This document shows positions 2,871 to 5,679 of a DNA stretch of 11,836 nucleotides, piece after piece. Every line of letters starts with the position of its first letter. Position 1 is the first letter of the stretch. The stretch spans positions 1 through 11,836 of the forward strand of contig JAGLTN010000383.1 of assembly GCA_023135255.1 (NCBI GenBank), written 5' to 3'. Made by a program: the position numbers and the translations under genes. Source of the stretch: Planctomycetota bacterium. Lineage in GTDB: Bacteria > Planctomycetota > Phycisphaerae > Sedimentisphaerales > Anaerobacaceae. The notes below the pieces were generated by a model, which ran no database searches, was not told the origin of the DNA, and saw only the letters and a list, made by a program, of their open reading frames with translations.

Positions 2871-2875
2871 CTTTA

Positions 2876-2919
2876 AAAAAGCGGCCTATCCTTAAAGATA
2901 AGCCGCTTTTTGTTTTTTA
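2876..2919 (+). terminator. Rho-independent terminator of tRNA-His
   Basis: AAAAAGCGGC (2876-2885) pairs with GCCGCTTTTT (2902-2911). The stem is extended inward by TATC/GATA (2887-2890 with 2897-2900) across one C-A mismatch, with a six-base loop. A long T-rich tract follows. The run of A before and T after would make it work in both directions. Confidence 0.88.
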
Positions 2920-2974: not shown

Positions 2975-3772
2975 TTTGAGATTAATAGCTCAACGCTGGG
3001 TCTTTGAGTGAGAGGTCGCCAACCCAGCGAAGAAGAATGAGAGACAAATTTTTAATACTTTATATCTAACCGGCAAGCCGGAGAATATTTAAACTGGACT
3101 TGACAACCTGCCTTTTTTTTAATTTTTTGTTGCGGGTTCGAGTCCAGCGTTGGCCAAAACTGGTTGCCTTGGCCAGATTTATAATTAACACAACACCAAG
3201 TTGCGATTAATTTTTTGCTGGATCTACTTAGAGAGAGAGTGCAAATCCAGCGAAGAAGAGGAGAGAGAGTTTTTAAGCCTTAACCTCCTATGGTTATCGC
3301 GGTATCTAACCGCGTCAGCTTTTGTTGCTGGGTCTACTAGAGAGAGAGTGCAAACCCAGCGAAGAAGAGGAGAGAGAGTTTTTAAGCTTTAACCTCCTAT
3401 GGTTATCGCGGTATCTAACCGCGTCAGCTTTTGTTGCTGGGTCTACTAAGAGAGAGAGTGCAAACCCAGCGAAGAAGAGGAGAGAGAGTTTTTAAGCTTT
3501 AACCTCCTATGGTTATCGCGGTATCTAACCGCGTCAGCTTTTATTGCTGGGTCTACTAAGAGAAAGATTGCAAACCCAGCGAAGAAGAAGAGAAGAGAAG
3601 AATCTTTAAGCTTCTTAAGCTTATTTTATTATTATCACGACATAAATCGTGCTAAGATCTGCCGGGCTTTATAGGCGCCTTAATTGTAACGTTGCGTTAC
3701 GACAACCTATAGCCCAGCTTGGGGAAGAAAACTCTTCACGAGCTATTATAAACATGGTTATCAAACCATGAC
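2975..3772. ncRNA. Candidate large structured RNA built of repeated hairpin modules
   Basis: This roughly 800-nt stretch has no plausible gene but is dense in helices. Six hairpin units (2995-3580) are followed by CACGA/TCGTG (3636-3651), a long stem GGGCT-ATAGG/CCTAT-AGCCC (3664-3675 with 3706-3715, two-base bulge), GAAGA/TCTTC (3724-3737) and CATGGTT/AACCATG (3753-3770, loop ATCA). Paired bases change together between units, which supports function as RNA. The strand is unresolved. On the plus strand a weak candidate promoter is TTTCCA (2945-2950), 18 bp, AATAAT (2969-2974). On the minus strand the region lies 43 bp after the stop of the sigma-54-promoted gene, with no clear terminator between. 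It matches no RNA family I can name. Confidence 0.45.
2995..3580. repeat. Tandem array of about 110-bp hairpin units (six copies, two divergent)
   Basis: Units begin at 2995, 3094 (very degenerate), 3217, 3327, 3436 and 3546; the last is only complete through its first hairpin. The three central units are nearly identical, with periods of 110, 109 and 110 bp. Each has a stem GCTGGGT...ACCCAGC with a 20-21 nt purine-rich loop, a purine linker (GAAGAAGAGGAGAGAGAG) and TTTTTAAGC. Then come AACC-tcctat-GGTT, CGCGGT-atcta-ACCGCG and GCTT, where AAGC and GCTT can close a multiloop (unit 3: 3275-3278 with 3318-3321). Unit 3 has GCTGGAT/ATCCAGC and unit 2 CTGGACT/AGTCCAG (3094-3100 with 3141-3147), so pairing is kept while sequence changes. 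Periods are not multiples of three and stops occur, so this is not coding. Confidence 0.9.
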
Positions 3773-3815
3773 CGCTCTCTTCCAGAAAGATCAACAATAA
3801 GCATTTAATAAAGGT

Positions 3816-4241
3816 TTAGTTTCTAACTTTTTTATACCTTTTGCTTTTTGTGGGACTGATAGACTCGATCGAGATAACACCCTTGAGACCAAGAATGTTA
3901 GCGACCGTCTGTTTGAAAAGCTCGTCATCGGTTTCGTCAGTCAAAACTGCCGAGACGCCGAGACTGCGTGCATCTATTTCCTGCTGCACGTCATTAGCTT
4001 TTACAAAAACTATGGTTGGGATGTCAGGCTTAACTGCCCGTAGGCTTTTAATGAACTGACCGTCCGCCATGTCTTTCAGATCCCACTTGCTGATCACGCT
4101 GTCAATTTTTTCACTTTTCAAAGAACTCGCAGCCTGCTTTCCTGACTGCATTGAAATTATTCGGATTGGTAACTCTTTCAGTATTTCGTTTTTGCCTTCA
4201 AGGCCCACTGTCAAAATATTTGCCTGAACAAGAACTATCAT
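3816..4241 (-). CDS. Degenerate (pseudo-)receiver domain protein
   Basis: A 141-residue, single-domain protein with the outline of a CheY-like receiver. Residues 47-61 (DSVISKWDLKDMADG) align with the usual V-[IL]-[ST]-D-W-x-[LM]-P-x-M-D-G around the phosphoacceptor, but Lys52 stands where the Asp should be. The acidic pair after strand 1, the Thr/Ser of strand 4 (PTIVFVKAN has Val) and the conserved Lys of strand 5 (AVLTDETDD) are also missing, so canonical phosphorylation is not expected. The tail from about residue 125 is basic and probably disordered. TAGGG (4249-4253) lies 7 bp before the ATG. The gene is 376 bp downstream of a sigma-54 activator on the same strand and has a sigma-54 promoter match in that gap. 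Its role is unknown; protein-protein signalling is a reasonable guess. Confidence 0.75.
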   Translation of the reverse strand: MIVLVQANILTVGLEGKNEILKELPIRIISMQSGKQAASSLKSEKIDSVISKWDLKDMADGQFIKSLRAVKPDIPTIVFVKANDVQQEIDARSLGVSAVLTDETDDELFKQTVANILGLKGVISIESISPTKSKRYKKVRN

Positions 4242-4307: not shown

Positions 4308-4323
4308 AGCGATAGCTGTGCCA
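4308..4323 (-). promoter_or_regulatory. Sigma-54 (RpoN) promoter, -24/-12 type
   Basis: Read on the minus strand the site is TGGCACAGCTATCGCT, against the consensus TGGCACG-N4-TTGCW. Ten of twelve defined positions match, including the GG and GC doublets at the exact spacing. Transcription would start near 4297, giving a 56-nt leader before the ATG at 4241. A sigma-54 activator is encoded just upstream. Confidence 0.7.
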
Positions 4324-4492: not shown

Positions 4493-4528
4493 GTGACCAT
4501 TATGGTTGCACCTGACTATAATGGTCAC
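4493..4528. promoter_or_regulatory. Perfect 11-bp inverted repeat, candidate activator-binding site (UAS)
   Basis: GTGACCATTAT (4493-4503) and ATAATGGTCAC (4518-4528) are perfect inverted copies with a 14-bp spacer. The left arm runs into ACCATTATGGT, itself nearly a palindrome. No T-run follows on either strand, so a terminator is unlikely. The centre lies about 190 bp upstream of the -24 element of the sigma-54 promoter, the usual enhancer distance, and 90 bp after the activator's stop codon. The alternative is an mRNA hairpin in the activator's 3' UTR. Confidence 0.55.
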
Positions 4529-4617: not shown

Positions 4618-5679
4618 TCAGCTTTTAGTTTTTTTGTTGATATTCGACAGTGAAATATTGAGCTTTTCAATAAGCCTGTTAAGACTTCGTCTTTCAATGC
4701 CAAGTATTTTGGCGGTAGCGAGCTTTCTCCCTTTGGTGAACTCAAGTGTTTGTATGACAAGCTTACGTTTGACTTCATTAAGAGTAGGCATTTCATGTTT
4801 GGGATATTGAGGGGTGTCTGCTATTATTATTTCAAAAGGCAATGCTGAAGATTCGATCTGCTGGGCTTGAGTAAGAACATAAGCACGTTCGATAGCATTG
4901 GCAAGTTCACGAACATTGCCTGGCCAAGAATAGTTCAACAAAAGCTCTTCGGTTTGTTTGCTCAACTTTTTTTCTGATTCGCCGTAAAATATCGCCTGGT
5001 TAGCAAGAAAATGTTTAGCTAAAGGCAAAATATCATCCTTACGCTGTCGCAAGGGGGGGACTTCAAGAGTTACCACATTCAAACGGTAAAAAAGATCCGC
5101 TCTGAATTTCTTATTATTCACCATTTCTCTAAGATCGCAGTTTGATGCACACACGACTCTTACATCTATTGGGTAGCTTTTTGTTGAGCCTATAGGGGTT
5201 ACGGTACTTTGCTGAAGAACTCGCAAAAGTTTTGCCTGGAGTTCAAGAGGGATTTCGCTTATTTCATCAAGGAATATAGTCCCGCCATCTGCAGCCCTGA
5301 AAAAACCTAACGTGTCATCTAAGGCACCAGTAAAGGCACCTTTCGCATGACCGAAGAGCTGACTTTCAAAAAGCTGACCTGTCAGTGTAGTACAGTCGAC
5401 AGGGATAAAAACTTTCCTGGCTCGATCGCTGGCATCATGAATCTCACGGGCAACCATTTCCTTACCAACGCCGGTTTCTCCTGTGATTATAATCGAACAC
5501 TTTCTCGTTGCGATGGCACCGATCATCTCGATAATTGAATTAAAAGCGGGGGATTGCCCTATGAAATCTGCATTGTGAGACATTCCGCGCACAACACTAT
5601 ATAGTGCCTCCGCTTGAGGTTTCTTTGTTGAGTCGAATTGAACCTCTTTCATTGACTCTTTGTCCAAATTGTCTCTCAT
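4618..5679 (-). CDS. Sigma-54-dependent transcriptional activator (AAA+ and Fis-type HTH, no receiver)
   Basis: A 353-residue bacterial enhancer-binding protein. It has a short N-terminal part (about 1-36) in place of a receiver or sensor domain, then the AAA+ domain with Walker A GETGVGKE (67-74), GAFTGA sigma-54 contact loop (114-119), Walker B GGTIFLDE (132-139), sensor I region (ASN, 178-180), the RADLFYRL arginine-finger region (193-200) and GNVREL (254-259). A Fis-like helix-turn-helix is at about 307-341. All motifs for ATPase-driven open-complex formation are intact. Without a receiver it may be constitutive or controlled by a partner; a pseudo-receiver is encoded next on the same strand. 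The start is not certain. ATG 5679 has GAAGAAG upstream; ATG 5652 (Met10) has only AAAGAG. Confidence 0.93.
   Translation of the reverse strand: MRDNLDKESMKEVQFDSTKKPQAEALYSVVRGMSHNADFIGQSPAFNSIIEMIGAIATRKCSIIITGETGVGKEMVAREIHDASDRARKVFIPVDCTTLTGQLFESQLFGHAKGAFTGALDDTLGFFRAADGGTIFLDEISEIPLELQAKLLRVLQQSTVTPIGSTKSYPIDVRVVCASNCDLREMVNNKKFRADLFYRLNVVTLEVPPLRQRKDDILPLAKHFLANQAIFYGESEKKLSKQTEELLLNYSWPGNVRELANAIERAYVLTQAQQIESSALPFEIIIADTPQYPKHEMPTLNEVKRKLVIQTLEFTKGRKLATAKILGIERRSLNRLIEKLNISLSNINKKTKS

Follow-up and report, generated by a model that had tools for sequence, protein, structure and literature searches.

Sponge RNAs of the CsrB/RsmZ type carry many repeated hairpins per RNA, with a repeated GGA motif in the hairpin loops. 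In the NfeR1/alpha-r14 sRNAs, according to the accessible part of the report, hairpins with different stems share a common unpaired anti-Shine-Dalgarno motif, CCUCCUCCC (PMC10746234). The ccaF1-CcsR1-4 locus, as far as it is described in the accessible parts of two reports, combines an alternative-sigma promoter, a small-protein gene, several related 3' RNAs and an intrinsic terminator (PMC10253847, PMC8625941). For the large RNAs GOLLD, ROOL and OLE, the accessible part of the source describes kissing loops between molecules (PMC12286853). Proteobacterial PEP-CTERM genes have been linked, in the accessible portions of the publications, to sigma-54 sites and the activator PrsR (PMC1569441, PMC9850573).

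Here, we analysed a stretch of 11,836 nucleotides (the window) from a planctomycete of the order Sedimentisphaerales, whose relatives are aquatic and uncultured. The sequence comparisons support the reading of 2990–3779 on the minus strand as a putative modular non-coding RNA region, whose family was restricted to one planctomycete order in our searches, and the repeats probably encode an uncatalogued tandem-hairpin RNA that helps to control other genes. No account of this element was found in the open-licence literature on Sedimentisphaerales noncoding RNA, and nothing on it was present among the open-licence matches listed for Planctomycetes structured RNA or for Phycisphaerae small RNA and sigma-54.

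The repeat array and its neighbourhood

On the plus strand, the window contains the end of a gene for a PEP-utilising enzyme, a glutamate symporter gene and a tRNA-His, next to which the array lies. Beyond the array, genes for a 141-aa receiver-like protein, a sigma-54 activator and a CBS protein are located on the minus strand. The features are as follows.

2875..2910, minus strand: AAAAGCGGC..GCCGCTTTTTT, an inverted repeat with a T run on the minus strand, probably the intrinsic terminator at which the array transcript ends
2995..3028, minus strand: H1 hairpin in the last, divergent repeat unit, flanked 5' by TCTCTCATTCTTCTTC
3094..3147, minus strand: hairpin CTGGACT/AGTCCAG, without a CU-rich tract; a different hairpin, not a repeat copy
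3217..3251, minus strand: H1 hairpin GCTGGATTTG/TAGATCCAGC, the sole compensatory pair within the window
3252..3269, minus strand: CU-rich tract CTCTCTCTCCTCTTCTTC
3298..3314, minus strand: H2 hairpin CGCGGT/ACCGCG, with copies at 3407–3423 and 3517–3533
3327..3360, minus strand: H1 hairpin GCTGGGTTTG/TAGACCCAGC
3361..3378, minus strand: CU-rich tract CTCTCTCTCCTCTTCTTC
3436..3470, minus strand: H1 hairpin
3471..3488, minus strand: CU-rich tract CTCTCTCTCCTCTTCTTC
3546..3580, minus strand: H1 hairpin
3581..3602, minus strand: CU-rich tract TTCTTCTCTTCTCTTCTTCTTC
3658..3779, minus strand: first (5') unit, comprising GAGAGC-hairpin-GCTC, GAAGAGTTTTCTTCCCC and the stem GCTGGGCTAT/AAAGCCCGGC
3816..4241, minus strand: small receiver-like protein, 141 aa (Response_reg PF00072, E 7e-8)
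4308..4323, minus strand: sigma-54 promoter motif TGGCACAGCTATCGCT (GG-N10-GC), about 66 nt 5' of the ATG
4493..4528, no strand assigned: inverted repeat GTGACCATTAT..ATAATGGTCAC, a candidate activator site, found by inspection without a control
4618..5679, minus strand: sigma-54 activator, AAA+ with GAFTGA and a Fis-type HTH (PF00158, E 2.5e-65; HTH_8)

An earlier note on this DNA had described a tandem array of hairpin units, and such an array is indeed present: TRF reported 3211–3598 with a period of 110, 3.5 copies and 96% matches, corresponding to near-identical 110-nt copies, and a further, divergent copy lies at 2995. The stems named in that note are found where it had placed them, including GCTGGAT/ATCCAGC at 3217–3251. 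Its count of six units of about 110 bp with the same fold was right as to the repeated hairpins and too high as to their number. Five GCTGG hairpins were found (at 3546, 3436, 3327, 3217 and 2995), and the hairpin at 3094–3147 was left out because it is a different one that lacks the CU-rich tract. Only part of the array had been recognized, and the first unit, which is the most conserved part, is distinct from the 110-nt copies and forms the basis of our covariance model R1 (15 sequences), had been missed.

On the minus strand, each CU-rich tract, CUCUCUCCUCUUCUUC, sits 5' of a GCUGGGUUUG/CAAACCCAGC hairpin. The terminator at 2875–2910, which a consensus terminator scan did not list, is bidirectional and also fits a tRNA-His transcript on the plus strand. 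A search of the window's own assembly (83% complete) for a second array, with E up to 1, returned one 18-nt match only.

Two further observations concern the array itself. The repeat units of the window contain, at 3281–3297 and in the copies, AUAGGAGGUU on the minus strand, a partial complement of their own CU-rich tract; a stretch of this kind was not noticed in the other loci. Within the array, 3131–3160 on the plus strand (GGTTCGAGTCC..GTTGGCCA) is possibly a tRNA remnant, as it resembles the consensus of a tRNA T-arm and acceptor end; ARAGORN called no tRNA at this position.

Structure, strand and range of the RNA

A DNA search gave matches in 15 of 60 genomes, the window's own included, all from the family f1, and the 14 other f1 loci were retrieved for comparison. 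In the R1 set, 94.0% of the cells of the first unit are paired, and the pairing fell to 34–51% when the partner was shifted by 1 to 3 columns. Double changes were observed at 7 of the 23 pairs (shuffles averaged 2.4, and 1 of 500 reached this number), and the covariation score was 0.181, compared to 0.139 for the shuffled sets (0 of 500 as high). The number of further pair types (18 versus 15.7; 36 of 500 shuffles as high) was a weaker result, one of five measures.

For the repeat hairpin, units with at least 8 of 10 pairs were picked, with G-U on the minus strand allowed (73 rows); 44 were selected and 8 that were identical within a locus were removed. The remaining 36 distinct units exhibited 13 double-changed cells, whereas 1000 shuffles gave a mean of 2.5 and a maximum of 7. 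Their pairing of 97.2%, compared to a shuffled maximum of 95.6%, is inflated because the units were selected for pairing. The compensatory changes that the earlier note had emphasized thus carry weight through the relatives, whereas within the window they amount to one double change among near-identical copies, which is weak alone. Conservation lies in the arrangement of a CU-rich tract immediately 5' of a strong hairpin, with variable loops; the tract is CUCUCUCCUCUUCUUC in f1, CUCCUCCUCC in f2 and f7, and CUUCUUC in f4 (one locus, L138).

The strand of the RNA was assessed from single mismatches lying between three Watson-Crick pairs on each side, by a rule symmetric for both strands. In the stems, 46 such mismatches read as G-U on the minus strand and 14 as G-U on the plus strand (29 versus 14 after removal of identical contexts; 11 versus 0 with four flanking pairs), and 30 kb of control DNA gave 93 versus 91; some of the loci behind these counts, and behind those of modules and promoters given below, are close relatives (L033/L055) and not independent. 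At L031 and L034, terminators for the minus strand can be recognized by eye. The folding z score was −12.5 for the minus strand and −9.4 for the plus strand, and either strand beat 20 of 20 dinucleotide shuffles. The good folding of the plus strand counts against a minus-strand assignment, as does one first-unit pair that is A-C on the minus strand and G-U on the plus strand in 2 of the 15 genomes (L034 and L043). Nonstandard cells in the 36 picked units numbered 10 of 360 on the minus strand and 44 of 360 on the plus strand, which is not independent evidence of strand because the rows were selected with G-U on the minus strand allowed. A plus-strand RNA with purine tracts was rejected in view of the symmetric G-U test, the promoter direction and the terminators. 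The minus strand, which also carries the neighbouring receiver-like gene, is the most likely one for the array RNA, and therefore the unpaired purine tracts proposed previously, which are wrong for an RNA of this strand, become CU-rich tracts.

R1 matched 27 of the 89 genomes of the window's family and 41 of the 161 genomes of the order Sedimentisphaerales, in the families f1, f2, f6 and f7; these searches of large genome sets used stricter filters, by which weak matches can be lost. In a class-wide draw, 28 of 397 genomes matched, all 28 within the order, with the share of the draw outside the order uncounted. No f1 genome larger than 3.5 Mb matched R1, yet one of 4.1 Mb (G021) has modules (L123). 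Modules are also present in the f4 genome G038, which is assembled as a single contig. In a pattern scan of named genomes, 16 stretches were returned, one of which (Aminicenantes) is a chance match in coding sequence. Viral spread was considered and rejected: the arm motif occurred in 9 viral contigs and one Aminicenantes record, in which no module was seen around the match, and these are probably chance matches in coding sequence.

An Rfam search, which the earlier note had recommended, gave no family match at the thresholds used, and a known Rfam family was rejected as the identity of the RNA because the hits, such as RAGATH-10 and rnk_leader, were below their cutoffs. The proposal of a candidate undescribed structured RNA is upheld by this result and by the homologues with covarying stems across an order. 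The same spread, 41 of 161 genomes, disposes of a satellite unique to one strain, which had been named as the finding that would overturn the proposal. A repeat acting at the DNA level, as a satellite or recombination site with no RNA role, would account for the near-identical window copies, which point to recent duplication, and for the copy number that differs between genomes; the covariation, the G-U strand asymmetry, the promoter direction and the gene partnership all speak against it and make it highly improbable.

Several relatives show additional elements. In one genome (G003, contig 22), a second array (L107) lies before a different gene with a sigma-54 motif nearby, which suggests that the array can move. 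At L103 (G040, f6), a stretch rich in small hairpins, without an Rfam match, lies between two array blocks at about 3700–3860 in the sense orientation. At L031 (G013), two ORFs occupy 369–2119 in the window orientation, the longer one being integrase-like by eye, and a Pro tRNA is located near the array; in several other loci, a tRNA-His is near it.

The pseudo-receiver gene, its promoter motif and PEP-CTERM genes

The receiver-like protein of the window has K (in VISKWDL) at the position of the phospho-acceptor Asp, as taken from an alignment to receivers of solved structure. All 13 aligned rows have K, N, S or R there, several further loci have H, and the family thus differs from canonical phosphorylatable receivers, which have the acceptor Asp. 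A profile of this pseudo-receiver (A3, 13 sequences) matched 63 of the 161 genomes of the order. R1 was found in 41 of the 63 genomes with the gene and in 0 of the 98 without it (Fisher, 1.6e-22); all 41 R1-positive genomes carry the gene. For the 22 genomes with the gene but no R1 match, 18 loci were fetched, of which 13 contained at least two modules, three contained one and two contained none. The gene occurs without modules at L130, a distant paralogue, and at L131.

In the 56 loci with the gene, 166 modules were sense and 13 antisense, with 6.0 expected from block shuffles, and at least two modules were present in 46 of the 56. Exceptions are L107, where the 6 kb fetched contain an array but not the receiver-like gene, and L141, which has a paralogue of the gene without modules. 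The modules come after the gene in the window and in f2, before it at L036 and L037, and on both sides at L033, L055, L117 and L120. At L104 (G058), the receiver-like frame continues into the first array module, giving a 170-residue open frame.

In 57 loci, the sigma-54 motif (TGGCAC-N4/5-T[CT]G[CT]) had 48 occurrences on the RNA strand and none on the opposite one. In 43 of 56 loci, it lay no more than 1300 nt upstream of the receiver-like gene; in 13, the strict motif was absent from this interval. Candidate sites resembling GACCAWWWTGGTC lie upstream of the motif in many relatives, as judged by inspection without a control. An ORF with the GAFTGA signature was observed on the same strand in 17 of the 57 loci as fetched and on the other strand in 1. 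The promoter motif probably answers to the adjacent AAA+ activator.

PEP-CTERM genes were found within 4 kb after the receiver-like gene in 14 of 24 f1 loci and in 1 of 13 f2 loci (L141, without modules), compared to 0 of 17 in f7, 1 of 1 in f4 and 0 of 1 in f6. In total, 16 of 56 loci have them downstream in the orientation of the gene, 1 has them upstream and 0 antisense, with none upstream in f1; the NCBIfam PEP_CTERM domain cutoff was reached by 2 of the 4 proteins submitted. No PEP-CTERM gene was seen in the window.

This downstream bias, together with modules that adjoin the gene on either side, favours a cis-acting leader or trailer, in which the modules would set the stability, cleavage or translation of their own transcript (pseudo-receiver, PEP-CTERM genes) only. 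Conversely, the f2 array ends in its own intrinsic terminator, 12 of the 13 f2 loci have no PEP-CTERM gene after the gene and the thirteenth has no modules, and 3 to 6 copies of one conserved tract are unneeded for a cis role. Purely cis control is somewhat doubtful.

Possible functions and comparison with known systems

The presence of many short unpaired tracts on one RNA suggests a purine-rich RNA or a CU-binding protein as the partner in contact with it. Pairing to mRNA leaders was ranked first because the anatomy matches that of ccaF1-CcsR1-4 and the f2 and f7 motif matches that of NfeR1, and cis control and a protein scaffold are its close rivals. We tentatively prefer, by analogy with these systems, the possibility that a sigma-54-driven transcript combines the gene with a multivalent CU-rich regulatory RNA acting like anti-Shine-Dalgarno sRNA arrays. 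A single transcript would start at about 4300, include the pseudo-receiver message and end at 2875, and its 3' part, whole or cut, would be the regulatory RNA. Each module would present a single-stranded CU-rich tract kept open by a strong hairpin, and the tracts would pair with purine-rich (Shine-Dalgarno-like) mRNA sites and block translation, each molecule serving several targets, in the manner of the NfeR1 and ccaF1-CcsR RNAs of alpha-proteobacteria. Cell-surface or exopolysaccharide (PEP-CTERM) functions would probably be part of the regulon, and the pseudo-receiver may have either the activator or the RNA as its target.

In 10 genomes, the complement GGAGGAGGAGAA occurred 133 times (44 in arrays, 89 outside) versus 47 times for the reversed pattern, a difference to which coding bias possibly contributes. 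Against the anti-Shine-Dalgarno model, the window tracts, CUCUCUCCUCUUCUUC, have no CCUCC core and the f4 locus has CUUCUUC repeats, and therefore strict anti-Shine-Dalgarno pairing does not account for every member; that the tract drifts between families also counts against pairing to mRNA leaders. Tracts that drift and yet stay CU-rich by their hairpins suit a protein better than fixed base pairing, and one protein family is common to every genome with the RNA. A scaffold or sponge, a possibility raised in the earlier note, whose tracts would bind and titrate many copies of a CU-preferring RNA-binding protein, Rho or the pseudo-receiver itself, is nevertheless doubtful, as the basic tail seen in some rows of the pseudo-receiver is missing from the f2 rows.

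In f2, the f6 locus, one f7 locus and L114 (f1), a module hairpin with a GACCGAACAGUGAU-like motif (lock) has its complement (key) in another hairpin loop. The key was present in 15 of the 16 relatives examined, the exception, L110, ending at a contig edge. Pairing at 13 or more of 15 positions was observed for 66 locks, compared to 4.05 with shuffled keys; a few of the 66 appear to be fortuitous. Double compensatory changes were seen at L114 (GAUCACUGGCCGAUC versus GAUCGGCCAGUGAU), and at L113 one end pair is changed on both sides. In 14 loci, the key belongs to a hairpin resembling a terminator, and L114 has it between modules; a run of at least four T follows 14 of the 15 key hairpins found in relatives. 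It was found in 9 of 10 f2 genomes; a separate sRNA carrying it elsewhere was rejected, as these 10 genomes contain one site, with 1 mismatch, off the array locus. Neither key nor lock was seen in the window, nor, apart from L114, in any f1 locus read, and therefore this pairing cannot be part of the present working of the window copy.

These loops, with their compensatory changes and their near-confinement to the array locus, are what would be expected of a self-assembling RNA, in which a hairpin loop pairs with repeat loops of other RNA copies. That they were not seen in the window or, L114 apart, in the f1 loci read, and that the pairing could equally be intramolecular, make such assembly very unlikely. 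A broader and still unlikely proposal is an order-specific RNA-protein regulatory system of an undescribed kind, in which a sigma-54 transcript would carry an unphosphorylatable receiver and CU modules. In relatives, the terminator-loop key would fit the module lock, and the RNA would lock or link its own modules and release them to silence surface or exopolysaccharide mRNAs, while the pseudo-receiver would sense free modules and feed back on the activator.

The f2 loci show other conserved elements. The f2 leader has AUAGGGAGGGAGG, a complement of the CU-rich tract, in most loci read. At the 3' end (e.g., L105 and L119), a conserved GAAGCAUCACCCAAUGUUGGGCC-like stretch lies just 5' of the terminator hairpin, and L104, L105, L111, L112, L116, L119, L122 and L142 encode, beyond the terminator, a conserved protein (..ELEKYSSAFTLSDMEIFVFPELMYSLL..; about 560–590 aa).

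Compared to CsrB/RsmZ RNAs, the array shares the many repeated hairpins in one RNA; in contrast, the GGA motif falls here on the other strand, and the tract on the RNA strand is CU-rich rather than a GGA loop. GOLLD, ROOL and OLE, as far as the accessible part of the source goes, are likewise large RNAs with loop-loop complementarity, which is seen here in relatives, whereas our RNA matched no Rfam covariance model at the thresholds used. The link of sigma-54 sites and an NtrC-like activator to PEP-CTERM genes recalls PrsK/PrsR-sigma-54 control, within what the accessible portions of the reports describe. Unlike PrsR, however, the activator has no detected receiver domain and scored 293.2 bits against TIGR02915 (PrsR), below the cutoff of 502.6.

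The NfeR1/alpha-r14 sRNAs resemble the array in their repeated hairpins, and f2 and f7 carry CUCCUCCUCC, a close match to CCUCCUCCC as given in the accessible part of the report. The window differs in that its tract is CUCUCUCCUCUUCUUC, 5' of the hairpin, with no unpaired CCUCCUCCC motif found, and in its longer RNA with more modules. With ccaF1-CcsR1-4 (CIN1 locus, 'cuckoo' RNAs, alpha-proteobacteria), as described in the accessible parts of the sources, the locus shares the promoter type, a small gene, hairpin RNAs and a terminator. The differences are the sigma-54 motif with an AAA+ activator, modules on either side of the gene, the lack of an Rfam match, the key and lock loops in relatives, and a pseudo-receiver in place of a DUF1127 protein, the neighbour matching Response_reg (PF00072) and nothing else in Pfam.

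The locus introduces a large RNA family not represented in Rfam, which is accompanied by a constant protein partner and has a defined promoter motif, and the key and lock loops of relatives make a self-locking RNA directly testable. If the anti-Shine-Dalgarno model is true, planctomycetes and alpha-proteobacteria would each have evolved multi-hairpin anti-Shine-Dalgarno RNA operons on their own, with partner proteins that differ.
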